A DNA stretch of 31,492 bases from a virus (IMGVR_UViG_3300033146_001603:1-31492), one strand, 5' to 3'; shown: positions 4,486 to 30,100, counted from the first letter of the stretch. Numbers and translations are program-made. The notes: generated by a model not told the origin, from the sequence alone.

Positions 4486-4854
4486 ATGTATAGTGATAAA
4501 GTAATGGATCATTTTTCAAATCCACGAAATGTTGGGGATTTAGAAAACGCAAATGCTGTTGGTGAAGTAGGAAATGCCACCTGCGGTGATATAATGCGAA
4601 TGTATTTAATAGTTGAAGATAATATTATTAAAGATATTCGGTTCAAAACATTTGGGTGCGGTGCTGCTATAGCCACGTCTTCAATGGCAACAGAAATGGC
4701 AATAGGTAGGACTTTAGAAGAAGCTGAAGCTCTAACGGATTTGGCGGTAGCTGAAGCCTTAGAAGGATTGCCACCGGAAAAAATGCATTGTTCAAATTTA
4801 GCTGCAAGTGCTATTCATGAAGCAATTAAAAATTATCGTTTAGAAAATTCTTAA
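4486..4854 (+). CDS. NifU/IscU-type iron-sulfur cluster scaffold
   Basis: This 122-residue protein matches the N-terminal NifU/IscU scaffold domain over its whole length. It begins with the family's YSDKVMDHFSNPRNVG signature. All three cluster-binding cysteines are present (Cys33, Cys58, Cys102), as is Asp35 in the NATCGD loop. The LPPEKMHCS segment (95-103) carries the LPPEK form seen in NifU-like proteins rather than the LPPVK of E. coli IscU. It should assemble Fe-S clusters for transfer to apo-proteins. It sits at the end of the late fibre unit and ends tail-to-tail with the HNH gene (4-base overlap). No cysteine desulfurase is visible, so host IscS/NifS would have to supply sulfur. A potential client is the radical SAM enzyme at 307. 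Confidence 0.92.
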   Translation: MYSDKVMDHFSNPRNVGDLENANAVGEVGNATCGDIMRMYLIVEDNIIKDIRFKTFGCGAAIATSSMATEMAIGRTLEEAEALTDLAVAEALEGLPPEKMHCSNLAASAIHEAIKNYRLENS

Positions 4855-5155: not shown

Positions 5156-5644
5156 ATGAAACAATTAAAACAAAAAGAATTAAAAGATTTACGTGAAAAA
5201 TTGTACGCAGAACAAAAAGGTATTTGTCCACTTTGTAAAACCAAAATTCGACTTGATGAAGCGGTTATAGATCATCAACATAAAACACTAAAAGAAGAAA
5301 TCGGTGCTGATGGCGCAGGGTTAGTTCGTGGCGTTTTGTGTCATAGATGTAATACTGTCGAAGGTGGAATGATTAACAAGTTCAGACGCTATGGAATATA
5401 CCTAAAGGACTATACCCAATTTTTAAGAAATTTAGCGGATTATTTGGATCAAGAACCTCTCCCCTATATTCATCCTACCGAAGCTCCAAAAATCCCCAAA
5501 TTAGGCAAACGTGATTTCAATAAATTATTAAAACTTTATAAAGCGAAATATCCAAGAAGAAAAAAAGGATTAACTTATCCGAAATCAGGTAAGCTTACTA
5601 AAAAATGGATAGATTTATTGGAAGAATTTAAGGAGGATTGGTGA
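5156..5644 (+). CDS. 49: Recombination endonuclease VII (Holliday junction resolvase)
   Basis: This 162-residue homologue of T4 gp49 (157 residues in T4) resolves branched DNA before packaging. The zinc cysteines are Cys24/Cys27 and Cys62/Cys65, the catalytic Asp39-His40 pair sits in VIDHQH, and Asn66 completes the His-Me active site (CHRCN). The C-terminal half is Lys-rich and helical, in keeping with the dimer-forming and DNA-binding part of the family. AAGGAG lies 6 bases before the ATG. A late promoter element directly precedes it, which fits the late need for this enzyme. Its TGA overlaps the LpxC start by one base. Confidence 0.92.
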   Translation: MKQLKQKELKDLREKLYAEQKGICPLCKTKIRLDEAVIDHQHKTLKEEIGADGAGLVRGVLCHRCNTVEGGMINKFRRYGIYLKDYTQFLRNLADYLDQEPLPYIHPTEAPKIPKLGKRDFNKLLKLYKAKYPRRKKGLTYPKSGKLTKKWIDLLEEFKEDW

Positions 5645-6483
5645 TGCTAATGAAACAACGAACATTAAAAGATGAATATAAATTTGAAGGGATTGGTCTT
5701 CATAGTGGACAACGATCTAAATTGATATTAAAACCAGCTGGTCCAAATCATGGAATTGTGTTTCATGCCAAACATTCTTTTGTTATAACAAAAATTCCAT
5801 ATTGTATTGAAAACGTTACTGATTCTAATTATTCAACTACTATTGGGAAAGATGGCGTATATGTTCAAACAATTGAACATTTAATGTCAGTTCTTTATGC
5901 GTTACATATTGATAATTTAGATATTTTCATTGAAGGTGATGAAGTTCCAGCTTTAGATGGTTCAGCTTTGGAATTCTGGATCGGGATCAATTATGTTGGT
6001 CTTGAATTCTATGAAAAATTCAATCAAGAGCCAATTAAAATAAAAGAGCCTTTGGAAGTCCATGATGGCAATTCATATATTAAAATCTCCCCCTGTAATC
6101 ATAAATTAGATATTCGATGTAGTATTGATTTTCCAAATACGGTAATTGGCAATCAAAACATTCAGATGATAATGGAAACAAGAAGTTTTATTACTGAAAT
6201 TATGTCTGCCAAAACGTTTGGATTTATGAAAGATTATGATGAATTGTTAATTAAAGGATTAGCTCAAGGTTCAAATCCACAGAACACAATTATTATTGGA
6301 AATCCTAATATCATCAATCCAAATGAGATGGTTCATTCTGATGATTTTGTTCGGCATAAAATATTAGATTTAATGGGTGATTTATCCTTGTTAGGGAGAC
6401 CATTATGTGGTTCAATTGATTCTTATTGTGCTGGTCATTCATTAAATCAAAAAATAGTGAAAAAGATACTTGACAATTGTTAA
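5644..6483 (+). CDS. lpxC: LpxC: UDP-3-O-acyl-N-acetylglucosamine deacetylase
   Basis: This is a full LpxC-family protein of 279 residues from the ATG at 5644, which has AGGAGG 7 bases upstream and overlaps the previous stop (TGATG). LpxC is the zinc enzyme that commits UDP-GlcNAc derivatives to lipid A synthesis in Gram-negative bacteria. Zinc ligands His79, His238 and Asp242, the general base Glu78, the catalytic His265, and Thr191-Phe192 all fall at the same numbers as in E. coli LpxC. The GIGLHSG start, IEHLMS, DGSA and VRHKILDLMGDL blocks are clear. The protein ends at residue 279, so it lacks the last 26 or so residues of the 305-residue E. coli enzyme, the region that holds the FtsH degradation signal. 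A role in altering host LPS or envelope synthesis during infection is inference. Confidence 0.93.
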   Translation: MLMKQRTLKDEYKFEGIGLHSGQRSKLILKPAGPNHGIVFHAKHSFVITKIPYCIENVTDSNYSTTIGKDGVYVQTIEHLMSVLYALHIDNLDIFIEGDEVPALDGSALEFWIGINYVGLEFYEKFNQEPIKIKEPLEVHDGNSYIKISPCNHKLDIRCSIDFPNTVIGNQNIQMIMETRSFITEIMSAKTFGFMKDYDELLIKGLAQGSNPQNTIIIGNPNIINPNEMVHSDDFVRHKILDLMGDLSLLGRPLCGSIDSYCAGHSLNQKIVKKILDNC

Positions 6484-6498
6484 GTATTCGTATATAAT
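6470..6498 (+). promoter_or_regulatory. Sigma70-type promoter for the topoisomerase/modification unit
   Basis: A perfect TTGACA (6470-6475), 17-base spacer and perfect TATAAT (6493-6498) overlap the last codons and stop of lpxC. The start point should be near 6505. The wider -35 box (ACTTGACAATT) is shared with the promoters at 18454 and 23844. It can drive everything from 6505 to 14396. Confidence 0.88.
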
Positions 6499-6504
6499 AC
6501 AGGT

Positions 6505-6651
6505 ATGAAAAAGTCAATTCCAAAAATAAATAAATTAGCCGGACTTAGGTTGAAAACCAAAGCTCCGGTTACTTTTGTTGATAAAAAGAAATCAACGAAT
6601 AAATCTGCTTGTCGTGGAAAGGTAAAGAATGGCAACTTTGAGAAAGAATGA
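6505..6651 (+). CDS. Possible small basic leader protein (48 aa)
   Basis: A 48-codon ORF begins at the predicted transcription start of the promoter before it, so the message would be leaderless. No Shine-Dalgarno site is present. It is strongly basic (many Lys, one Cys) with no recognised motif, and overlaps the start of the topoisomerase gene by 23 bases. It may be a real small protein, or simply an open stretch in the 5' leader. The leader also contains a possible weak hairpin (CCGGA near 6539 with TCCGG near 6565). Confidence 0.35.
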   Translation: MKKSIPKINKLAGLRLKTKAPVTFVDKKKSTNKSACRGKVKNGNFEKE

Positions 6652-8500
6652 TATTCAAACACTTGGGGAATTAGAATATGTTCTCAAGCGACCTGGAATT
6701 TATATTGGTTCAATCAAGGAAGAAATGGTTGAAAAATATATGTATGAAGGTGCTAAGATGGTTAAAAAAACTGTACCTTTTATCCCTGGTTTAATTAAAA
6801 TTATTGAAGAAGTTATTGATAATTCAATTGATGAATCCATTGAAACGAATTTTGTCTTTGCTAATAAAATCAATGTCACTTATGATAATGGTATTATTAC
6901 AGTTAAAGATAATGGTCGTGGTTTGCCAATTGCCAAAGATAAATTAACCGGAAAAAATGTAGTTGAAAATATCTTTACAGAACTTCGTACTGGTTCAAAT
7001 TTTGATGATGAAAAACGAGCCGAAAAAGAAAAGAAGGGGATGAATGGCGTTGGTGTTTCCCTTACTAATATTTTCAGTGATTGGCTTCAAGTTAAAACCG
7101 CCAATGGTGCTCGACAATATATCCAAAAATTTGAATTGGGACCAGTTAAACGTCTTCCTGCTAAAATAACAGAATCTGATAATAATTTTACTGAAGTCAC
7201 ATTTAAACCGAATTATGCTTATTTTGAGCCTTCAGAAGAATTCATGAAAGTTTTACCTGATTTAATTTATCGGGTATTACGAAATGCTGCTTTCTGTTTT
7301 CCCGAAATCAATTTCAAGTTTAATGGTAAAAAAATTGGTGGTTCCAATTTAAGACAATTCATGTTAACAATTCATCCTATCAATGAATTCACCGAAAATG
7401 AAAAAGTACGTCTTGGTGTATTCTGTTCAGATGATGGCTTTCAACATCTAAGCTTTGTGAATGGTTTGGATACCTCTCGCGCAGGAACACATATTGATTA
7501 TGTAACAAATACTATCGTTAATAAACTTAGAGAATATATTAAGAAAAAATATAAATTGGAAGTTAAACCAGCCGATATTCGAAATAAATTATTCATTTTG
7601 TTGTCAGTACGGATACCTGCGCCTGATTTTGATGGTCAAACTAAAGAACGATTGATTACTCCAAATTCTTCATATAATGATCGAATGATTAGTATATTCA
7701 GTGATAAGTTTTTCAAGCAATTGATTAAGAATGAAGAAATTATTGAACCAATAGTTGAATCATATCGTTTGAAAAAACAAGTTGAAGAAAATATTAACTT
7801 GAAGAAAATCAGCCAACAAAAACAAACCAAAATTCGTGTTGAAAAATATCTCCCAGCGACCAAACATCGTAAATGGTTAGTATTAACTGAAGGTGATTCT
7901 GCCAAAGGTTCAATATCAGCGGTATTAGGTCGGGAGGAATACAGTTATTTTCCCCTCAAAGGGAAACCACTCAATGCTTATGAAGCAAAACCAAGCGTAA
8001 TTGTTAAAAATGCTGAATTTCAGAATATCGTTAAAATAACAGGAATGCGTTTAGATAAAGATATTCAAAATCAACTTAGATATGAGAATATTTTATTTGC
8101 GACAGATCAAGATGCTGATGGAAGTCACATTAAAGCTTTATTATTAGCATATTTTGGGAGATTTGGTATTTCGTTAATCAAAGCCAAGAAGATTCATTTT
8201 CTCAGAACACCATTGATAGCAATTAAGAAAAAGGGAAAGATTGTAGATTATTTTTTCGATTTTGAAGATTATAATAAAAGTAACACAAAAGGTGGAGATG
8301 TTTTATACTATAAAGGGTTGGGAACTTGGGATGCGAAAGATCTCAAAGGAATTATTAAAAAAGATGGAATCAATAATTTCATTTTAACATTCACTTGGGA
8401 TGATGAGTCAAGTCAATCTTTGAAAAATTGGATTGGTTCAGATGCCGATCTCAGAAAACCTTTATTGCGAGGCAAAACATTTAGTTTTGATGGTGTTTGA
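6629..8500 (+). CDS. 39: Type II DNA topoisomerase large subunit (gp39/gp60 type)
   Basis: This 623-residue ATPase/toprim subunit corresponds to T4 gp39 plus gp60 in one chain; T4 itself splits it. The GHKL ATP site is complete: the EEVIDNSID box around 60-68, DNGRG at 94-98 and GMNGVGVS at 137-144, with the QTK lysine of the transducer at 337-339. The toprim half has EGDSAKGS (421-428), PLKGKPLN (442-449) and DQDADGSH (493-500), the Mg-binding acidic cluster. It works with the gp52-type subunit at 13074 to relieve supercoils during replication. GGAAAGG precedes the ATG. The stop overlaps the next gene by one base (TGATG). Confidence 0.96.
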   Translation: MATLRKNDIQTLGELEYVLKRPGIYIGSIKEEMVEKYMYEGAKMVKKTVPFIPGLIKIIEEVIDNSIDESIETNFVFANKINVTYDNGIITVKDNGRGLPIAKDKLTGKNVVENIFTELRTGSNFDDEKRAEKEKKGMNGVGVSLTNIFSDWLQVKTANGARQYIQKFELGPVKRLPAKITESDNNFTEVTFKPNYAYFEPSEEFMKVLPDLIYRVLRNAAFCFPEINFKFNGKKIGGSNLRQFMLTIHPINEFTENEKVRLGVFCSDDGFQHLSFVNGLDTSRAGTHIDYVTNTIVNKLREYIKKKYKLEVKPADIRNKLFILLSVRIPAPDFDGQTKERLITPNSSYNDRMISIFSDKFFKQLIKNEEIIEPIVESYRLKKQVEENINLKKISQQKQTKIRVEKYLPATKHRKWLVLTEGDSAKGSISAVLGREEYSYFPLKGKPLNAYEAKPSVIVKNAEFQNIVKITGMRLDKDIQNQLRYENILFATDQDADGSHIKALLLAYFGRFGISLIKAKKIHFLRTPLIAIKKKGKIVDYFFDFEDYNKSNTKGGDVLYYKGLGTWDAKDLKGIIKKDGINNFILTFTWDDESSQSLKNWIGSDADLRKPLLRGKTFSFDGV

Positions 8501-9447
8501 TGTTAGATGATAATCAAAAGGAAGATTTATTATTTGAATTGATGACTTCACAGAAAGATACTTCTGTAACATCTAATATGATACAAACACGTCAAGATGA
8601 TTATAATGAGGATGTTTGTTGGCAATATAATATTAGGGTTAATAATTTAGAGGATGATTTAAAGAAAGCATTTCTCACCAAAGAAGAAGTTTCGAATTTA
8701 AGAACTTCGGATTTCACTTTTCGATTATTAGAAACCAAACGTGAGCAGAATGAAGCGGTGGAATTTATTAAACGGCATGAGTGGTTGGGTACAATTTCAC
8801 AATTCACAACTCATTGGTTTGGTGCTTATTATAATGATATTTTAAGTGGTATTATTTTAATGAATCAACCTAATGCTTTTAGTAAGATGTTGGGAGAAGC
8901 CACGCCACAACTTGAACGTTTAGTTTCTAGGGGTGCTTGTATTTCTTGGTCTCCAAAAAATTTAGCTTCGAATTTTTTAATGTGGTGTATCAAATATATG
9001 GTACAAAATACACAATATCGTTTATTCACAGCATATTCTGATCCTGAAGCAAAAGAATTAGGCACAATATATCAAGCATGTAATTGGTATTATTTGGGTC
9101 AAACATTTGGAGCCAACAGAAGATATTATTCACCATATACCGGAAAATTGGTTTCTGATCGTACATTTAGATGTGTATCATTTTATCGAAAATATGCGAA
9201 AGAACTCGGAATTCGCTGGGAGAAAAATTGGGTTGACAAACAGAAAATTTTATGGGATAATATGCCTAAAGATGTAGAAGATAAATTACGTTTGATGTCA
9301 AAAACCAAACAACAAGAATCTGATTATATTGAACCACCATTAAAACACAAATATGCTTATGTTCTTGGTGATAATAAAAAGGAAACAAAACGATTGAAAA
9401 AACAAATGGCATTAATCAAAACATACCCTTATCCCAAAGAACGTTAA
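8500..9447 (+). CDS. Mom-like GNAT acyltransferase 1 (putative DNA modification)
   Basis: This 315-residue protein has a GNAT-like core in its middle part. Residues about 75-205 show an HEWLG entry, strands around WFGAYYNDILSG, a LERLVS-RGACISWSPKN segment, and the hallmark YSDPEAKELGTIYQACNWYYLG (179-200). That block closely resembles the S-D-G/P...GxIYQAxNWxYxG block of the phage Mu Mom family, which converts adenine to N6-carbamoylmethyladenine. An N-terminal extension of about 70 residues and a Lys-rich tail of about 80 residues are extra. It starts one base inside the topoisomerase stop (ATG at 8500) and overlaps the methylase stop-start by one base. It may be an acyltransferase acting on DNA bases; the exact chemistry is not known. 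Confidence 0.72.
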   Translation: MLDDNQKEDLLFELMTSQKDTSVTSNMIQTRQDDYNEDVCWQYNIRVNNLEDDLKKAFLTKEEVSNLRTSDFTFRLLETKREQNEAVEFIKRHEWLGTISQFTTHWFGAYYNDILSGIILMNQPNAFSKMLGEATPQLERLVSRGACISWSPKNLASNFLMWCIKYMVQNTQYRLFTAYSDPEAKELGTIYQACNWYYLGQTFGANRRYYSPYTGKLVSDRTFRCVSFYRKYAKELGIRWEKNWVDKQKILWDNMPKDVEDKLRLMSKTKQQESDYIEPPLKHKYAYVLGDNKKETKRLKKQMALIKTYPYPKER

Positions 9448-10322
9448 TGATAACTTTTTTTAGATATTCTGGTACTAAAGCAAATCCATTATATATTGAT
9501 AAAATTAATGAATTTGTGAATTCATGTACTAATGAAATTTATGTTGAGCCGTTTGTGGGTTCGGGTGGAATTTTCTTTAATTTAGAAAAATCATTCCAAC
9601 ATTATATTTTAAGTGATCTTGATTCAAATATTATTAGAATCTATAAATCATTTAAGGAAATGAAATCATATTCTCAATATATTGAAATTTATACAGAAGT
9701 CTTTAATAAATTTGGAACATTATTAATTGATAATCGATATTGTGACCAAAAACAAGCAGAAGAATTAAAACGTTCATATTATGAATTTAGAGCTTGGTTC
9801 AATCAAAATTATTGGAAAACCGATACATTTGAAGAAGGAGTTTATTTACATTTATTGACAAATTCATGTTTGAATTCATTCTTGAGATTTGGACCAAATG
9901 GGATGAATCAATCATATGGGTTAAGGTGTTATCTATTATCTCAAACCAATTTTAATGTTATCAATTCCAAATTACAAAAATGTGATTTAATTTGTTCGGA
10001 TTATCAAAGCATTATTAATGATAATCCAACAGCTTTGTTTTTTCTCGATCCACCATATCAATCTCAAGATAGTTCATATACTCCCTTTGATGAAAATGAT
10101 TTAAAAGAATTTATTAAAAAAATTAAACCAATAGAATTTATCTATACAGATATTTTGAATAATATAAATTCAACATTAAAACATAAATTATATCTGAGAA
10201 ATATTAATAGCACTTCACCAAATCGAAAAGAAACCGAAACAAAAAATGAAGAATTCTTATTCACTTATAAGGAATTCCCAAAGAATGGTTTATTATCATT
10301 CATAGAGGATAACGAAATATGA
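9447..10322 (+). CDS. Dam-type DNA adenine N6-methyltransferase
   Basis: This 291-residue protein is a D12-class (Dam-like) adenine methylase. It begins with FFRYSGTKANPL, the counterpart of the Dam YxGGK segment, has the AdoMet-binding motif I EPFVGSGG at 34-41, a middle target-recognition region, and catalytic motif IV DPPY at 201-204. It would methylate adenine N6, or a modified form of it, in phage DNA. It overlaps its neighbours on both sides (TAATG at the start, ATGA at the end), so it is translationally coupled to the Mom-like gene before and the second methylase-fold gene after. Confidence 0.9.
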   Translation: MITFFRYSGTKANPLYIDKINEFVNSCTNEIYVEPFVGSGGIFFNLEKSFQHYILSDLDSNIIRIYKSFKEMKSYSQYIEIYTEVFNKFGTLLIDNRYCDQKQAEELKRSYYEFRAWFNQNYWKTDTFEEGVYLHLLTNSCLNSFLRFGPNGMNQSYGLRCYLLSQTNFNVINSKLQKCDLICSDYQSIINDNPTALFFLDPPYQSQDSSYTPFDENDLKEFIKKIKPIEFIYTDILNNINSTLKHKLYLRNINSTSPNRKETETKNEEFLFTYKEFPKNGLLSFIEDNEI

Positions 10323-11380
10323 AAAAAATATTAACTGTTGAAGATTTCAAAAATCATGAAATTCAATATGGTGTAACCGTTAATGGGAGAAAATATCCCT
10401 ACTATGTTCAAATGGATGATGAAACATACAACACACTCATTGAACTAATGACCACCAAACCAAATTTGGATAAAGTAAAATATGAGATAAGACAATTACA
10501 TAATGGGAATAACAAAACCTCTTTGGTAGAGAAATATTTCTTCTTGGATTTAATGTATAAAGTTGAAACAAAAGTTTCAAAAAAATCAATTGAAAAAACA
10601 CTCCAAAATAAAGATTTGATGTCTTATATGGTTGCGAAAATTTTAGTTAAACGGAAGTTGTTTTATGATAGACTAATGATTAATAATTTCCTCAAATGTT
10701 TTAGTATGTCAACTTTTGAATTTGGGGGAAAACCACCAAATTATCCAATTAAATCAGTAAAGGAAGTATTGATAAAATATAACATCAATGATAATTATTA
10801 TGATTATTCCTGCGGGTGGGGAAATCGGTTATTGGGTTCTTTAGTTGAAAAAGTTAATTATCATGGTACTGATCCAAATTATTTATTGACAGAAAGATTA
10901 AAAGAATTAGCTGATACATATGAGGAAGTGAATACATTAAAATCAAGTGTTGATATACGGACACAAGGTTCGGAGATATTCATTCCTGAATGGGAAAATA
11001 AAATGGGGATGGCATTTAGTTCTCCACCATATTATGATGTAGAAGATTACAAAATTGGTGATCAATCTGTTAAAGCAAACACCTCATATGATGAATGGTT
11101 GAATACCTATTGGTCAGGCACTGTTAAAAACATTAAAAAGTATTTGGTTGAGAATGGTTTCTTCCTTTTGAATATGAAGAACATGAAAAAATATAATCTA
11201 TTGGATGATATGTCTGAAATCATATTGAATAATGGGTTTAATCTGTTTGGGAAAGAATTGCTGGTTAATATCACTCGAAAAGTTGATGAAGATAATAATG
11301 AGGATATTGTGGTGTTTATAGATGAACATTCAGATAATCCTCAAACGAATAATTCAAGTTTGGAGTCATTTTTTGATTGA
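10319..11380 (+). CDS. SPPYY-motif methyltransferase-fold protein with clamp-binding-like C-terminus
   Basis: This 353-residue protein has an N-terminal helical region (about 1-130) and a Rossmann methylase core. The core includes YDYSCGWGNRLLGS (161-174) as motif I, HGTDPN (182-187) as motif II, and SSPPYYDVEDY (234-244) as motif IV. The S-P-P-Y form is typical of N4-cytosine or related beta-class enzymes, but the target base cannot be inferred. The last ten residues, NNSSLESFFD, resemble the DNA polymerase tail in this window (SLEDFFS) and the RB69 polymerase clamp-binding tail. It overlaps the Dam-type gene by 4 bases and the PLP gene start by 8. It probably takes part in DNA modification with its neighbours. 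Confidence 0.8.
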   Translation: MKKILTVEDFKNHEIQYGVTVNGRKYPYYVQMDDETYNTLIELMTTKPNLDKVKYEIRQLHNGNNKTSLVEKYFFLDLMYKVETKVSKKSIEKTLQNKDLMSYMVAKILVKRKLFYDRLMINNFLKCFSMSTFEFGGKPPNYPIKSVKEVLIKYNINDNYYDYSCGWGNRLLGSLVEKVNYHGTDPNYLLTERLKELADTYEEVNTLKSSVDIRTQGSEIFIPEWENKMGMAFSSPPYYDVEDYKIGDQSVKANTSYDEWLNTYWSGTVKNIKKYLVENGFFLLNMKNMKKYNLLDDMSEIILNNGFNLFGKELLVNITRKVDEDNNEDIVVFIDEHSDNPQTNNSSLESFFD

Positions 11381-12263
11381 TGTAAATTGGATATCGCCTA
11401 TTGAAGAATATGATATATTGTATAAACGAGATGATTTATTTTCTCCATTTGAAAATGGGGTTAATGGTGGTAAAGCTCGGCAAGCAATATCATTGATATA
11501 TAATAATCTTGATCATATACGTGAGAATTGTAATAATACAATAATTACTGCGACAAATATAGATTCCCCTCAAGGAATAATCATTTCCACGGTAGCAAAA
11601 CATTTTGGTGTTCGTTCAAAAGTTGCGTTTGGTTATGTTGGAAGGGATAAAGACAAGCTTTGTAAAAATCATTTAGTTCAAAAAACAATTGCTGCGGGTG
11701 GGGAAATTGAAATCATAGCAAATGCGCCTTATACCGCAGCTGTTAATAAAGCGTTACGTGAAGTTGTATCTGCCCGAAAATATTTCCCGATTAAATTTGG
11801 TATAAATGCTTCTGATAATGCTGATAGTATTTTTGGTGTTATTGAAAATCAAGTTCAAAATATACCAAAAGATTTAGATTTATTAATAATTCCTGTGGGT
11901 AGTGGTTTAATATTTAGTGGTATTTTGCGTGGATTATTAAAATATAACTTGACACCAAAAAGAATTATTGGTATACTGAGTGGAATGGATAGTTCAAAAG
12001 ATATTGAAAAGAATCTTACATCATATGGGATAAAGCGTAATTGTCAAAATAGTTCTATATTGGATTTTATGGGAAGTGAAACCAAATTAGAATATGAAAT
12101 TCACAAAAGTGATTTAAAATATCATCAGAAAAAATATATTGATGAGCCATTTAGTTTTGATCCTATTTATGAAGTAAAAGCACTTTTGTGGTATAAAAAA
12201 AACATAAAAGAAACAGGCAAACATTTATTATGGGTTGTTGGCAATCAAAGATTTATGTATTAG
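11373..12263 (+). CDS. Fold-type II PLP-dependent enzyme (ACC deaminase / cysteine desulfhydrase-like)
   Basis: This 296-residue protein resembles the tryptophan-synthase-beta superfamily of pyridoxal-phosphate enzymes, closest in pattern to ACC deaminase and D-cysteine desulfhydrase. It has KRDDLFSP (18-25), the PLP lysine Lys34 in NGGKARQA, an SPQG turn (65-68), and the phosphate-binding loop PVGSGLIFSG (174-183). I chose the TTG start at 11373, with GGAG 7 bases upstream; the ATG at 11322 would force a 59-base overlap and add 17 residues with no match to the fold. Its position inside the Mom/methylase cluster suggests that it makes or processes an amino-acid-derived group for base modification. 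That is inference; it could instead be an unrelated metabolic gene. Confidence 0.82.
   Translation: MIDVNWISPIEEYDILYKRDDLFSPFENGVNGGKARQAISLIYNNLDHIRENCNNTIITATNIDSPQGIIISTVAKHFGVRSKVAFGYVGRDKDKLCKNHLVQKTIAAGGEIEIIANAPYTAAVNKALREVVSARKYFPIKFGINASDNADSIFGVIENQVQNIPKDLDLLIIPVGSGLIFSGILRGLLKYNLTPKRIIGILSGMDSSKDIEKNLTSYGIKRNCQNSSILDFMGSETKLEYEIHKSDLKYHQKKYIDEPFSFDPIYEVKALLWYKKNIKETGKHLLWVVGNQRFMY
11949..11977 (+). promoter_or_regulatory. Internal sigma70-type promoter inside the PLP gene
   Basis: TTGACA (11949-11954), a 17-base spacer and TATACT (11972-11977) match the pattern of the intergenic promoters in this phage exactly. It lies within coding sequence about 300 bases before the second Mom-like gene and could provide extra transcripts of that gene and the topoisomerase medium subunit. 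Confidence 0.5.
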
Positions 12264-12272
12264 GATTATTAT

Positions 12273-13061
12273 ATGAAACAAATTATTGGCAAAAAATATT
12301 ATGTAAAAGAAACAACTCCCGAATTAGCTAGGAAAATCATAAAGAAATTTCATTATTCGAAAAAATGTGTTTCTAATTCAAACGTACATTTGGGTGTATT
12401 TAGAATAGATGATCATAATCTGATTGGAGCACTTCAATTGGGTCCAAGTATGAATGGATACAAAACAACATCAAAATTTCATACATCTGAAAAATGTTTA
12501 GAATTAAATAGAATGGCTATTGATGAGTCTGAACCAAGAAACACCGAATCACAAGTTTTGGCATTGATGTTTAAATGGTTGAAGAAATATACTGATATAG
12601 ATTTTCTAATTTCATTTAGTGATGGAAAAGAAGACAATGTTGGATATATTTATCAAGCAACGAATTGGATATATGTTGGTTATTTGATTAGTGATAGTTT
12701 TTGGGATTTAGATGGTAAAATTTTACATAGTGTTACGGTTTGGCATCAATTTAAAGAAAAAAAAGATATAGTTAAAGAAAATTCATTAAATGTTTTTTTG
12801 GGGGTTGAAACTATTCCGAAAACTACTAATGAATATTTATGTGAAGTTTTTGATAATGTAAGTGTTATTACTTCAAAGCAGCATATCTATCTATATCCAA
12901 TAAAAAAACGAATTAAATTTAAATTAGAAAAACAAAAATATCCTAAAATGGATACAGAAATTCCTATATTAAAAAGAAAAATTATTAAAGAAAATGGTAA
13001 AATATTGAAACAACCAAAACATAAAGTTTATTCTAATGAACCACTAAAACCATGTATTTAA
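12273..13061 (+). CDS. Mom family adenine-modification acyltransferase 2
   Basis: This 262-residue protein is the clearest Mom homologue of the window. It has the FHYSKKCVSN entry near 26-35, the HLGVF...LIGALQLGP strands (39-58), LELNRMAIDESEPRNTES (76-93) with the conserved R-N-(T/S)-ES, and SFSDGKEDNVGYIYQATNWIYVG (114-136), followed by a DGKILHS segment. Mu Mom installs the N6-carbamoylmethyl group on adenine and protects DNA from restriction. A basic C-terminal tail of about 90 residues may bind DNA. It follows the PLP gene by 9 bases and lies directly before the topoisomerase medium subunit. Two Mom-type genes in one cluster may act on different bases or in sequence. Confidence 0.85.
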   Translation: MKQIIGKKYYVKETTPELARKIIKKFHYSKKCVSNSNVHLGVFRIDDHNLIGALQLGPSMNGYKTTSKFHTSEKCLELNRMAIDESEPRNTESQVLALMFKWLKKYTDIDFLISFSDGKEDNVGYIYQATNWIYVGYLISDSFWDLDGKILHSVTVWHQFKEKKDIVKENSLNVFLGVETIPKTTNEYLCEVFDNVSVITSKQHIYLYPIKKRIKFKLEKQKYPKMDTEIPILKRKIIKENGKILKQPKHKVYSNEPLKPCI

Positions 13062-13073
13062 TTGGAGATATAA

Positions 13074-14396
13074 ATGACAGAAATTAAAGTACAAGAATTT
13101 TTCAAAACCGAATTTCCAAATTTTGCGGTGTATAACTTGTATCGTATGGTTGCCTCTTATGTTGATGGTTTGAAACCCTCTCAACGTAAAATTGTTTATA
13201 CGGTAATGGAAAACAATATTCAAAAACCAATTAAAGTAAGTCAATTAGCAGCAAAAACATCAGAATTTACACAATATCTACATGGGGAAGTTAATCTCCA
13301 AGGTGTTATTGTGAATATGGTACAAGATTTCACTGGAACAAATAATATGAATGTTTTGTATCCTGAATCTTCATTTGGAAATAGATGTTTTCCACAAGCA
13401 GCTGCTGCTCGATATATTTTCACTCGTAAAGCTGATTGTTTTGATAAAATTTATAATAAACTTGATACATCATTATTACCTCAACAAACATTTGAAGGTG
13501 ATGATATTGAGCCAAAATATTTCATTCCTGTTTTACCAATGATTTTAATAAATGGTTCTGAAGGAATTGGTTCTGGTTGGGCACAAAAGATTCTCCCAAG
13601 AAATCCAAAAGATGTTAAAAGGGAGATTATTCAATATCTTCATGGGAAACCAAATCGACAAATCAAACCATGGTTCAAAGATTTTGAAGGGGAAGTGAAA
13701 CATATTGAGAAAAATACTTGGGAATTATGGGGAGTTTTATTTCAAAAGAATTTGACTACATTTGAAATTACAGAAATTCCACCAAATATTTCTTTAGATA
13801 GATTTACTGCGAATTTGATCAAATTAGAAGATTCGGGGGAGATTGTTTCTTTCACAGATTATTCTGATCCTGGTACTAATAATTTTCATTTTACGATCAA
13901 GACTAAAAGGGATTTTACCAAGAAGAAGAGTTTTGAGCAAATCATGAAGAAGTTTCATTTGATCAAACGGGTTACTGAAAATTTTACTTGTATTGATGAA
14001 AATAATAAGGTTCGAGAATTTCAAAGTGGTGTTCAAATACTTGGTAATTATTGCGATCTAAGATTAACCTACTACCAGCATAGAAAAGAAAAGATCGTTC
14101 ACGAGAAGGAATATCTGATAGATTCCTTACGCAACAGACAACGATTTATTGAACACATTATAAAAAACAAATTAAAAATTAAAGATTTGAAGAAATCCGA
14201 AATTATAACCTACCTAAAAGATAATAATTTCGCACTGAGAGAAAGAACATATAATTATCTTTTGAATATGCCTATCTATACAATCAGTAAAGATCAATTC
14301 GAAAAGATTAAAAAAGAATTGGTTCAAATCAGTCTGGAATTAGATCTCATTAAATCCAAAACCATAACTCAAATGTGGTTGGAAGATTTAAAATAA
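13074..14396 (+). CDS. 52: Type II DNA topoisomerase medium subunit (gp52)
   Basis: This 440-residue GyrA-like cleavage subunit is almost the length of T4 gp52 (442). The start shows VASYVDGLKPSQRKIVY (26-42), then the winged-helix region and QAAAARYIFTR, in which Tyr114 is the catalytic tyrosine that bonds to DNA. The IGSGWAQKILPRNP segment (about 164-179) is the family's conserved turn into the tower. It pairs with the large subunit at 6629. It has a GGAG site 8 bases before the ATG and ends the unit; the next gene has its own promoter. Confidence 0.95.
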   Translation: MTEIKVQEFFKTEFPNFAVYNLYRMVASYVDGLKPSQRKIVYTVMENNIQKPIKVSQLAAKTSEFTQYLHGEVNLQGVIVNMVQDFTGTNNMNVLYPESSFGNRCFPQAAAARYIFTRKADCFDKIYNKLDTSLLPQQTFEGDDIEPKYFIPVLPMILINGSEGIGSGWAQKILPRNPKDVKREIIQYLHGKPNRQIKPWFKDFEGEVKHIEKNTWELWGVLFQKNLTTFEITEIPPNISLDRFTANLIKLEDSGEIVSFTDYSDPGTNNFHFTIKTKRDFTKKKSFEQIMKKFHLIKRVTENFTCIDENNKVREFQSGVQILGNYCDLRLTYYQHRKEKIVHEKEYLIDSLRNRQRFIEHIIKNKLKIKDLKKSEIITYLKDNNFALRERTYNYLLNMPIYTISKDQFEKIKKELVQISLELDLIKSKTITQMWLEDLK

Positions 14397-23902: not shown

Positions 23903-24580
23903 ATGAATTTTTCAGAAACAGAACTTACGATTCTTAGCAATTTTGCTAAAATCAATCCTTCACAAATTATCAAACCTACTGGATTTGGTGCGAAAGAACC
24001 ATCTGCGTCAATTGTTGGTGTTTATGATTTTGAGGAATCTTATGATTTTGAACCGTTTGGAATTTATGAAGTGCCAATGTTCCTCCAAGCACTCGAAGCA
24101 TTTGATAAACCAAAAATTGATGTAAAACCTGATCGTGTTGTGATTAAAGAGGGTTCATCAAAGATTCAATTTTTCACAACTCCCCTTGATTTGATCAAAA
24201 ATTCTGAAGTACCAAATATTGCGCCCAAGTTTGATAAATTGGATTGTGAATTGGATTTTGATCTTCCTGCCGATAAACTTGCGACAATTTTCAAAACTGC
24301 CTCGGTTTTCAAAGCCAAATATCTATTTCTTGAATCAGATTCAAAAGGTGTTCGTTTAACTGTTTCATCTGATACTCCTGGTTCGAGTGCCAATTCATTT
24401 GAAATTATGATTCGTGATAATGTTCGTTCAAATGAACTTGCCAAAACAGTTTTGAAAATTCCTTTTGCGGAATTGCGTATTATTCCTGGTGATTATTCAA
24501 TTAAAGCATCCGCTAAGAAAATTTCTAAATGGGCTTGTTTTAATGATGTAACTTATTATGTTGGATGTATGATTGACTAG
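23903..24580 (+). CDS. 45: Sliding clamp (gp45)
   Basis: This 225-residue protein matches T4 gp45 (228 residues) in length, layout and neighbours. It opens with a helix like T4's (FSETELTILSNFAKINPSQIIK), alternates strands typical of the clamp fold, and ends with the PGDYSIKASAKKISKWA segment, where T4 has PGNYKLLLWAKGKQGAVKF. As a trimer it would ring DNA, hold the polymerase and, in T4, also activate late transcription with gp33/gp55. The gp44 and gp62 genes follow within 11 bases and with an overlap. Confidence 0.93.
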   Translation: MNFSETELTILSNFAKINPSQIIKPTGFGAKEPSASIVGVYDFEESYDFEPFGIYEVPMFLQALEAFDKPKIDVKPDRVVIKEGSSKIQFFTTPLDLIKNSEVPNIAPKFDKLDCELDFDLPADKLATIFKTASVFKAKYLFLESDSKGVRLTVSSDTPGSSANSFEIMIRDNVRSNELAKTVLKIPFAELRIIPGDYSIKASAKKISKWACFNDVTYYVGCMID

Positions 24581-27511: not shown

Positions 27512-30100
27512 ATGTCAAAATCTCTTTTATCAATCGAAATGGTAAATAAAAATACCATATATCACCGTTATCTGGAAAATGGATCAAGAGAAGAAGAATA
27601 TATTGAATTCAAACCATTTTGTGGTGTCATAACTGATAAAAAATCATCCATTAAAACATTATATAATAAGCCATTGGAATTAAGGAAATTTGATAATATT
27701 TCTGAATTCAAAAAATGGACTCGTGAGAATGAAGATTATATAGATATTTATGGTAATATTCGACCTGAATATATGTTTTTATCATCAGTTTATCGTGAAG
27801 AAATCCCGTTACAATGGGATGATATGCGGATTGATAACTTCGATATTGAAGTTGTACGTGAAGATGGATTTCCAGATGCGCAGATTGCTGATTGGCCCGT
27901 GACAGCTATCACAATCCAAGATGTTATTAAAAAAACATATACAACATTTGGATTCAAAAATTATGTTAATCATGATCAAAAAAGAATAAATTATATTCAT
28001 TGTGATGATGAAAAAGATTTATTGAAAAAATATATTGCTTATTGTGTAGAACGGAGACCTGACATTTTAACAGGTTGGAATATTGTTAATTTCGATATTC
28101 CTTATATGGTAAATAGAATCAAAAAAGTTCTCGGTAAATCTTGGGCTAATAAAATTAGTCCAATTGGGAAACTAAGAGCTCGAGAATATAAAGATACTTT
28201 TGAAAATGAAATTAACACATATGATATTTTAGGTACAGTCATCTATGATTATATGGAGCTTTATTCGAAATTTCAATTTGAACCAAGAGATGGAAAATCA
28301 TTAGAAGTTATCGCTCAAGCAGAATTGGGAAAAGGAAAATTAGATTATAAAAAAGGTGATAATCGCTCATTAACCGAACTTTATCATAATGATTTTCAAA
28401 CCTATATTGATTATAATATAAGAGATACCGAATTGGTTGGATTAATCGATGATAAACGAGGTTACCTGAGACTCGCTATCAATATGACATATATGGCAAA
28501 ATGCTTGTTCAGTGACGTGTTTGGAACTGTCGGTATTTGGGATGCTTACCTATATAATATCCTATTGAATAAAAAAATATTGTGTCCACCAAGAAAAACA
28601 AATATCAAATCCTCATTCCCAGGCGGGTGGGTTGAAAAACCACATAAAGGTCTAAATGGCTGGAATATGGTATTTGATATTGCTTCCTCATATCCAAATT
28701 CAATTATCAGTTATAATATTTCAACCGAAACCATAATTGAATTTAGTTCTTTGCCGAAAGAATTACAAAACTTAGCAGATTCAATTCGACCATTTTATTC
28801 TCAAGGTGAATCTACATGGTTAATCAATGATAAAATATATGATGTAGATTGGCTGGAGGAAAACGCCAAAGAATTATTAGAAAAATACGATTTGTGTATG
28901 ACTCCATGGGGTGAATTTTTCCGGAGAAATGAAATTGGATTTATCCCTGAAGTAGTCGATAAGATATTCAAATCAAGAAAAAAAGTTAAAGGGGAAATGA
29001 AAACAATTGATTTTAGTTCAAATGAATATGCTGCGTTAAACGCTCAACAAATGGCGTTCAAAACACTCATGAATTCATTATATGGAGCTATGTCAAATAT
29101 TTGGTTTAGGTATTTTGATATTAGAATGGCAGGTTCTATTACCTGCGCAGGACAAGCATCTGTTAAAGGTTCTTCAAAATACATTCAAGATAATATCAAG
29201 GGTATGAAGAACTTTTATACTGATACTGATTCAATCTTTTTAGATTTACAACCATTCATTGATGCTCGATTTAAAAATAAAGAACATACTTTTGTTGATG
29301 AACATGATTTCTGTATGAAATTATCGACACAATTAGTTGAACCAAAATTAACTGAATTCTTTGATCGATTAACTAAAGGTTTGAATACATTCACAAATAC
29401 GTTAACAATGGAATCAGAAGTTTTAGCTGATGCGTGGATAAGTGTTGAAAAGAAAAAGTATTCAATGCGGATTATCAATGATGAGGGTGAAGAATTTTTC
29501 AATCGTGAAACCCTAGAATTAGGTAAATGGAATTTTGATAAAACTGAATTTGAGGTTGGCAAAGTCAAATTGAAAACTAAAGGTCTTTCTTTGATTCAAT
29601 CCACAACTCCACAATTTTCAAGATCAAAATTAAAACAATCTCTTGAATTGATTTTTCAATATAGAGATCAGGAAGTCATTAAAGATAAATTTAAGGAGTG
29701 GAAAGATGAATTTATGACTTTACCTTTTGAAGAAATTTCAATGCCAAGAGGGGTTACTATTTTTAATAAATATGTTGAGAATCCTGCGGGTGCTCAAGCT
29801 CATGTTAGATCGGCAATTGCGTTTAATAAAGCTTTGATTGATTTGAAATTAGATAAGACATTTCAAAAGATAAATCAAGGTGATAAAATTCGTTATGCCT
29901 ATATTGAAGTTCCAAATATTTTTGGTATTGAAGTTATGGCTGTAAAAGATAAGATGCCTGAACTTATAAATAACAATATTAAAGTAAATTGGGATATTCA
30001 ATGGCAAAAATGTTTCACCTCACAATTAGAGAAAATATTTGAAACAATCGGTTGGAATATATCTGAAGATGATGTATCTTTAGAAGACTTTTTTAGTTAG
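27512..30100 (+). CDS. 43: DNA polymerase, family B with 3'-5' exonuclease (gp43)
   Basis: This 862-residue replicative polymerase corresponds to T4 gp43 (898). Exonuclease motifs are intact: FDIEVV (Asp111/Glu113), the FDIPY region (Asp195) and YNIRDTE (Asp305). Polymerase motif A is FDIASSYPNSI (Asp389), motif B KTLMNSLYG (517-525), motif C YTDTDS (569-574), and VEKKKYS (645-651) is the KxY box. The C-terminus, VSLEDFFS, is the expected clamp-binding tail (RB69 ends SLFDMFDF). AGGAG precedes the ATG. A promoter embedded in a terminator drives it independently of the clamp operon. Confidence 0.97.
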   Translation: MSKSLLSIEMVNKNTIYHRYLENGSREEEYIEFKPFCGVITDKKSSIKTLYNKPLELRKFDNISEFKKWTRENEDYIDIYGNIRPEYMFLSSVYREEIPLQWDDMRIDNFDIEVVREDGFPDAQIADWPVTAITIQDVIKKTYTTFGFKNYVNHDQKRINYIHCDDEKDLLKKYIAYCVERRPDILTGWNIVNFDIPYMVNRIKKVLGKSWANKISPIGKLRAREYKDTFENEINTYDILGTVIYDYMELYSKFQFEPRDGKSLEVIAQAELGKGKLDYKKGDNRSLTELYHNDFQTYIDYNIRDTELVGLIDDKRGYLRLAINMTYMAKCLFSDVFGTVGIWDAYLYNILLNKKILCPPRKTNIKSSFPGGWVEKPHKGLNGWNMVFDIASSYPNSIISYNISTETIIEFSSLPKELQNLADSIRPFYSQGESTWLINDKIYDVDWLEENAKELLEKYDLCMTPWGEFFRRNEIGFIPEVVDKIFKSRKKVKGEMKTIDFSSNEYAALNAQQMAFKTLMNSLYGAMSNIWFRYFDIRMAGSITCAGQASVKGSSKYIQDNIKGMKNFYTDTDSIFLDLQPFIDARFKNKEHTFVDEHDFCMKLSTQLVEPKLTEFFDRLTKGLNTFTNTLTMESEVLADAWISVEKKKYSMRIINDEGEEFFNRETLELGKWNFDKTEFEVGKVKLKTKGLSLIQSTTPQFSRSKLKQSLELIFQYRDQEVIKDKFKEWKDEFMTLPFEEISMPRGVTIFNKYVENPAGAQAHVRSAIAFNKALIDLKLDKTFQKINQGDKIRYAYIEVPNIFGIEVMAVKDKMPELINNNIKVNWDIQWQKCFTSQLEKIFETIGWNISEDDVSLEDFFS

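Follow-up and report, generated by a model that had tools for sequence, protein, structure and literature searches.

Base hypermodification in phages blocks restriction and CRISPR nucleases. In phage Mu, the product of Mom is N6-carbamoylmethyladenine, and this adenine modification is not known to involve a PLP-enzyme partner. Pathways to amino-acid-bearing thymidines start from a hydroxymethyl handle: thymidine hypermodification of the ViI type, reportedly described by Lee and colleagues in 2018, is said to combine a 5-hydroxymethyluracil kinase (HMUDK) with a PLP enzyme. The CmoX/CmoY pair resembles the pathway proposed here in that a methyltransferase-fold enzyme acts first and another enzyme then joins an amino acid to the base (PMC12783734), but it differs in using a C5-cytosine methyltransferase with carboxy-SAM and an ATP-dependent ligase, with no PLP enzyme.

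Modification genes between two topoisomerase subunits

The locus lies in a 31,492-base IMG/VR record (IMGVR_UViG_3300033146_001603:1-31492), a genome fragment of a T4-related phage, the whole of which we call the window. An earlier note had placed five closely packed genes between the topoisomerase subunits gp39/60 and gp52, and this arrangement was borne out: all five, like the two boundary genes, lie on the + strand and are joined by overlaps or separated by a gap of 9 bases. On the left, the gene for the topoisomerase large subunit gp39/60 (6629..8500; PHROG 1e-175) ends in a stop codon that has one base in common with the ATG of Mom1 (8500..9447), a long Mom-family protein of 315 aa. It is followed by a D12-class adenine methylase (9447..10322), an SPPYY class I methyltransferase (MTase; 10319..11380), a fold-type II PLP enzyme (PALP; 11373..12263) and, after the 9-base gap, the Mu Mom-like protein Mom2 (12273..13061); gp52 (13074..14396; PHROG 1e-122) closes the block on the right. 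An ATG at 11322 would give the PLP gene a 59-base overlap with the MTase gene and a TTG at 11373 an overlap of 8 bases; judging from the homologues, which align from the TTG, the latter appears to be the better placed start.

About 130 bases upstream of gp39/60, at 6470-6498, we observed a perfect 12/12 match to a sigma-70-type promoter (TTGACA-17-TATAAT), which could drive the whole gp39-cassette-gp52 block. The region to the left also encodes an LpxC (lipid A deacetylase; 5638-6483), which matches Pfam at 2e-84, scores over the NCBIfam equivalog cut-off and has a counterpart in the same place in L005 (1044-1865), the relative discussed below. Near the left end of the window are a radical SAM/SPASM protein (307-1335; phrog_7293 1e-103) and a NifU N-terminal (Fe-S scaffold) protein (4486-4854; 8e-48).

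Both proteins called Mom-like in the earlier note pass the Pfam Mom cut-off of 27.1 bits (PF25680), Mom1 with 51.7 bits (1.1e-13) and Mom2 with 157 (6.3e-46). Mom1 also matches the PHROG Mom-like family (2e-20) and is 59% identical to a protein of Vibrio phage 501E54-1. The structure of Mu Mom (PDB 8bv8) was matched by Mom2, which aligns with it over 149 residues (2.5e-20) and covers the entire Pfam model, but not by Mom1, whose profile found no match among solved structures. Unlike Mu, the window carries two divergent copies in one locus. Mom multiplicity itself is not new, because several Mom enzymes per phage have already been reported, five of them in PA5oct (PMC7824862).

The adjacent methylase carries the expected DPPY motif (FFLDPPY) and matches MethyltransfD12 (PF02086) with 71.9 bits against a cut-off of 22 (8.9e-20). 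Its score against NCBIfam dam (TIGR00571; 2.2e-24, 86.6 bits) falls under the cut-off of 114.85, so by sequence comparison the enzyme is Dam-like, not Dam. The view that DNA-modification enzymes are packed together at this site is supported.

Gene order in related loci

A scan with a gp39 alignment recovered only one close relative, L005, whose gp39 and gp52 are 86% and 71% identical to the window's. Its gp39-gp52 interval holds a single gene, an SPPYY MTase 56-58% identical to the window's, and no Mom gene was found in its 64-kb record. In two further records (L010 and L012) gp39 and gp52 are adjacent or nearly so, and in L011 the gap between them contains unrelated ORFs. Because these four records differ there, the gp39-gp52 site is variable; the MTase is the gene common to the window and L005, and the five-gene order is not kept.

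A scan for the Mom1 family gave 78 loci, or 79 with phage 501E54-1, in 41 groups at 90% identity. Mom1 relatives are mostly alone in these loci: the PLP enzyme and the window's D12 methylase are absent from the fetched flanks of all 79, and a few contain, kilobases off, another Mom gene or an SPPYY-like one. The family itself (L018-L095) is strikingly conserved, at 43-64% identity to the window's protein over at least 41 groups. Its genes often adjoin DNA polymerase genes, and an SPPYx or other methylase lies within 3 kb in about a quarter of cases.

Seen from the PLP enzyme, a Mom protein over the cut-off occurs in 1 of the 27 records of the window's branch (L134), and the PLP-Mom link is therefore confined to the window and that record. 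The L134 operon runs PolB-Mom-HhH-methyltransferase-PLP with 4-base overlaps. Its HhH gene (L134:1847-2230), overlapping within the operon in the Mom-MTase interval, encodes a small HhH-GPD-like protein (Pfam 1.7e-5). MTase-family and Mom genes adjoin both here and in L256.

These comparisons bear on the earlier interpretation of the five genes as a single pathway, in which an amino-acid-derived group is made ready by the PLP enzyme and attached by the Mom proteins, at sites selected or acted on by the methyltransferases. The close packing in the window would fit such a pathway, as would the presence of Mom, MTase and PLP genes in one L134 operon and the adjoining MTase and Mom genes of L256; the 79 Mom1 loci without a PLP gene, the 1 record in 27 with a Mom protein, the lack of both PLP and Mom genes at the L005 site and the case of Mu, which is not known to need a PLP partner to modify adenine, all argue against it, and we consider it improbable. 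A conserved five-gene unit was ruled out by the synteny of L005, the Mom1 loci and the PLP records; the loci compared are contig fragments, in which absence from one record is no proof for that phage. PLP and Mom genes, whose separation in relatives the earlier note would have counted against itself, are indeed largely found apart; PLP and MTase genes are not.

Two genomic settings of the PLP enzyme

The PLP enzyme matches Pfam PALP (PF00291) with 38 bits against a cut-off of 35 (1.6e-9), and a Foldseek search with its predicted model (pLDDT 89.7) returned D-cysteine desulfhydrase and ACC deaminase (E about 1e-10). The NGGK motif pointed out earlier proved to be the PLP-lysine region, conserved across the PLP family, with Lys34 invariant. 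Along with this lysine, Ser65 and Tyr266-Glu267 are conserved, and the three positions align with ACC deaminase residues that we take to be Lys51, Ser78 and Tyr295-Glu296 (numbers partly counted from the alignment). The window's enzyme thus shares the fold, the PLP lysine and the substrate serine with both enzymes, and the YExK signature with ACC deaminase. It differs from them in its low identity (~16-18%), its shorter length, its place in a phage operon and its scores far under the family cut-offs (24.4 bits against 550 for ACC deaminase, NF010646). Its sequence and model make activity on an amino acid likely.

As a lone query, the window's PLP protein found no matches among viral contigs; relatives were recovered with alignments as queries, which yielded 86 loci in 49 groups. 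In a maximum-likelihood tree built from 45 representatives, the window's branch is separated from a sister branch (support 98/97), and the window's enzyme is itself long-branched within its group. The genomic context splits along the same line (Fisher p about 1e-7 and 5e-7). On the window's side, an SPPYx MTase lies no more than 5 kb away in 16 of 22 representatives, the window included, and HMUDK is absent from all 22; on the sister side, HMUDK is found in 16 of 23 and a radical SAM gene nearby in 3, with no SPPYx MTase. At the level of records, 14 of 19 from the sister branch contain the HMUDK helical domain, versus 0 of 27 from the window's. Among the members of the sister branch are Ackermannviridae relatives of Vi01_182 of phage ViI, and the loci of this branch carry HMUDK and thymidylate-synthase-like genes, which is the setting of 5-hmdU-derived bases (PMC6449724). 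The idea that relatives of the PLP enzyme reside in DNA-hypermodification loci is supported.

Neighbouring genes of other kinds were also seen. In L132 (6823-9495), an Asp/Arg-hydroxylase-like 2OG oxygenase gene lies upstream of the PLP gene with a 4-base overlap and is another modification-type partner of it; an N6_N4-type methylase comes next, with the motif SLPD in place of SPPD. Two loci whose PLP enzymes group with the HMUDK-linked ones, L137 (6399-8828) and L144 (4778-7489), have consecutive ParB-like (ParB_N 0.006 in L137), radical SAM and PLP genes near terminase-like genes.

The locus thus shares with ViI-type hypermodification a homologous fold-type II PLP enzyme, but the window's branch is separate in the tree and has SPPYx methyltransferases in place of the kinase. 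Membership of the window's enzyme in the ViI branch was ruled out by the tree (98/97) and by the absence of HMUDK from the 27 records of its own branch. No HMUDK kinase was found between gp39 and gp52. The phage might still make ViI-like 5-hydroxymethyluracil-derived bases if the kinase were encoded elsewhere in the genome and the PLP enzyme acted there, as its homology to Vi01_182 (28% identity over 265 aa) and the fragmentary nature of the 31-kb window would allow; with its separate branch and the 0 of 27 records, we find this doubtful.

A further alternative is that the locus is a loose set of independent anti-restriction genes, with the PLP enzyme a metabolic deaminase or desulfhydrase unrelated to DNA. 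Its nearest folds and conserved catalytic residues would agree with such a role, as would the many MTase genes without a PLP neighbour among the matches listed, but the pairing with MTases in 16 of 22 representatives and the HMUDK loci of the sister branch speak against it, and we regard it as rather unlikely. The recurrent partner of the PLP enzyme is the MTase, not Mom. A genome scan with the PLP alignment found the same MTase-PLP pair in one marine metagenome-assembled contig. Conversely, the PLP enzyme is no more than an optional accessory, because the MTase family mostly occurs without a PLP gene: the two are adjacent in 0 of 46 groups among the matches listed, outside which lie known pairs such as L127. 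By analogy with the sister branch and from its neighbours, the PLP enzyme probably attaches or edits an amino acid linked to a base.

The methyltransferase, its clamp-like tail and a proposed pathway

Profile comparison placed the window's SPPYY protein (METHYLTRANSFERASE) and the PLP-adjacent MTases of 410-540 aa in one family (hhalign probability 100, E 9e-39, 285 columns), with invariant motifs around D-S-C-G-W-G-R, DPN, SPPY, E-x-Y and QS; the window's protein reads YDYSCGWGNR and SSPPYY. An AlphaFold model (pLDDT 89) predicts the class I MTase fold that had been proposed from the motif, and the protein combines this fold with a SAM loop and a [DNS]PP[YFW] motif, the features of an amino-group DNA methyltransferase (N4-C/N6-A). 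The protein matches a PHROG DNA methyltransferase family (4.9e-6) and has no significant match in Pfam, N6_N4_Mtase included, against which its L005 relative reached 19.6 bits, under the cut-off of 26.7. PADLOC returned generic methyltransferase models only.

In Foldseek, the top matches among solved structures are the RNA methyltransferases Bud23 and Trm11, as would be expected if the protein methylated RNA or protein rather than DNA. We think this very unlikely: the top viral matches include proteins annotated as N4-cytosine DNA methyltransferases, a profile search gave a distant match to a DNA modification methylase, and the MTase has a polymerase-like tail. On sequence and model, DNA is the likely substrate, and the target is most likely the exocyclic amino group of cytosine (N4) or adenine (N6).

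In T4-type polymerases, gp45 is held via a C-terminal peptide. Of 44 window proteins checked, only 2 have a polymerase-like C-terminus: the MTase, which ends in SLESFFD (11357..11377, +), and the gp43 DNA polymerase B (27512..30100, +; PHROG 3.7e-207), which ends in SLEDFFS. The proposed docking partner is the gp45 sliding clamp (23903..24580, +; PHROG DNA polymerase processivity factor 4.8e-34). With 80 further loci fetched with PLP-adjacent MTases, the tail was present in 51 of 65 distinct MTases (related sequences, not independent), in 42 of 47 ORFs related to PolB and in 0 of the 355 remaining ORFs (p ~4e-53). Background ORFs of the first two sets of loci rarely show the pattern (8 of 1556); of the 33 MTases close to Mom1 or PLP genes in those sets, 6 do. 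Other clamp-tailed proteins, one of them HNH-like, are found at L039:1611-2588, L048:5750-6145 and L171:6619-7929. The Mom genes that adjoin the MTase in L134 and L256 share its tail (NLEDFFA and STLESFMQ), a hint in favour of the earlier single-pathway reading; Mom1 and Mom2 of the window lack it.

From its motif, the MTase tail probably binds the clamp as that of the polymerase does, and because the two proteins share it, it suggests that DNA may be modified while it is copied. T4 alpha-glucosyltransferase is likewise a DNA-modifying enzyme associated with a phage sliding clamp: it co-purifies with gp45, and its clamp binding does not set the modification level (PMC13216743). It differs in being a glycosyltransferase, not an MTase, and the interaction in the window is predicted from the C-terminal peptide.

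The reading that we prefer, with a probability of roughly one half, is that the variable gp39/60-gp52 site holds a composite DNA-modification locus, with the SPPYY MTase as its clamp-tethered core, an optional PLP partner and separate Mom and D12 enzymes. The SLESFFD tail would dock the MTase on the sliding clamp as in the polymerase, so that bases would be modified just behind the fork. The ACC-deaminase-like PLP enzyme would attach or edit an amino-acid-derived group on the same base as the MTase or a neighbouring one, a role like that presumed for its sister branch in 5-hydroxymethyluracil loci. Both Mom proteins and the D12 methylase would act separately, modifying adenine for further protection. 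More tentatively, the clamp-tailed MTase family and the PLP enzyme, sometimes joined by a clamp-tailed Mom, might form a replication-coupled pathway to an undescribed amino-acid-bearing base that needs no hydroxymethyl handle.

What is new here is the pairing of the PLP enzyme with the MTase and the presence of a clamp-like tail in a widespread family of MTases. If the PLP enzyme does work with an amino-MTase, the pair would be another route to amino-acid-bearing bases; and if a common MTase family is tied to the sliding clamp, it would become testable how phages modify their DNA before host nucleases can act on it.
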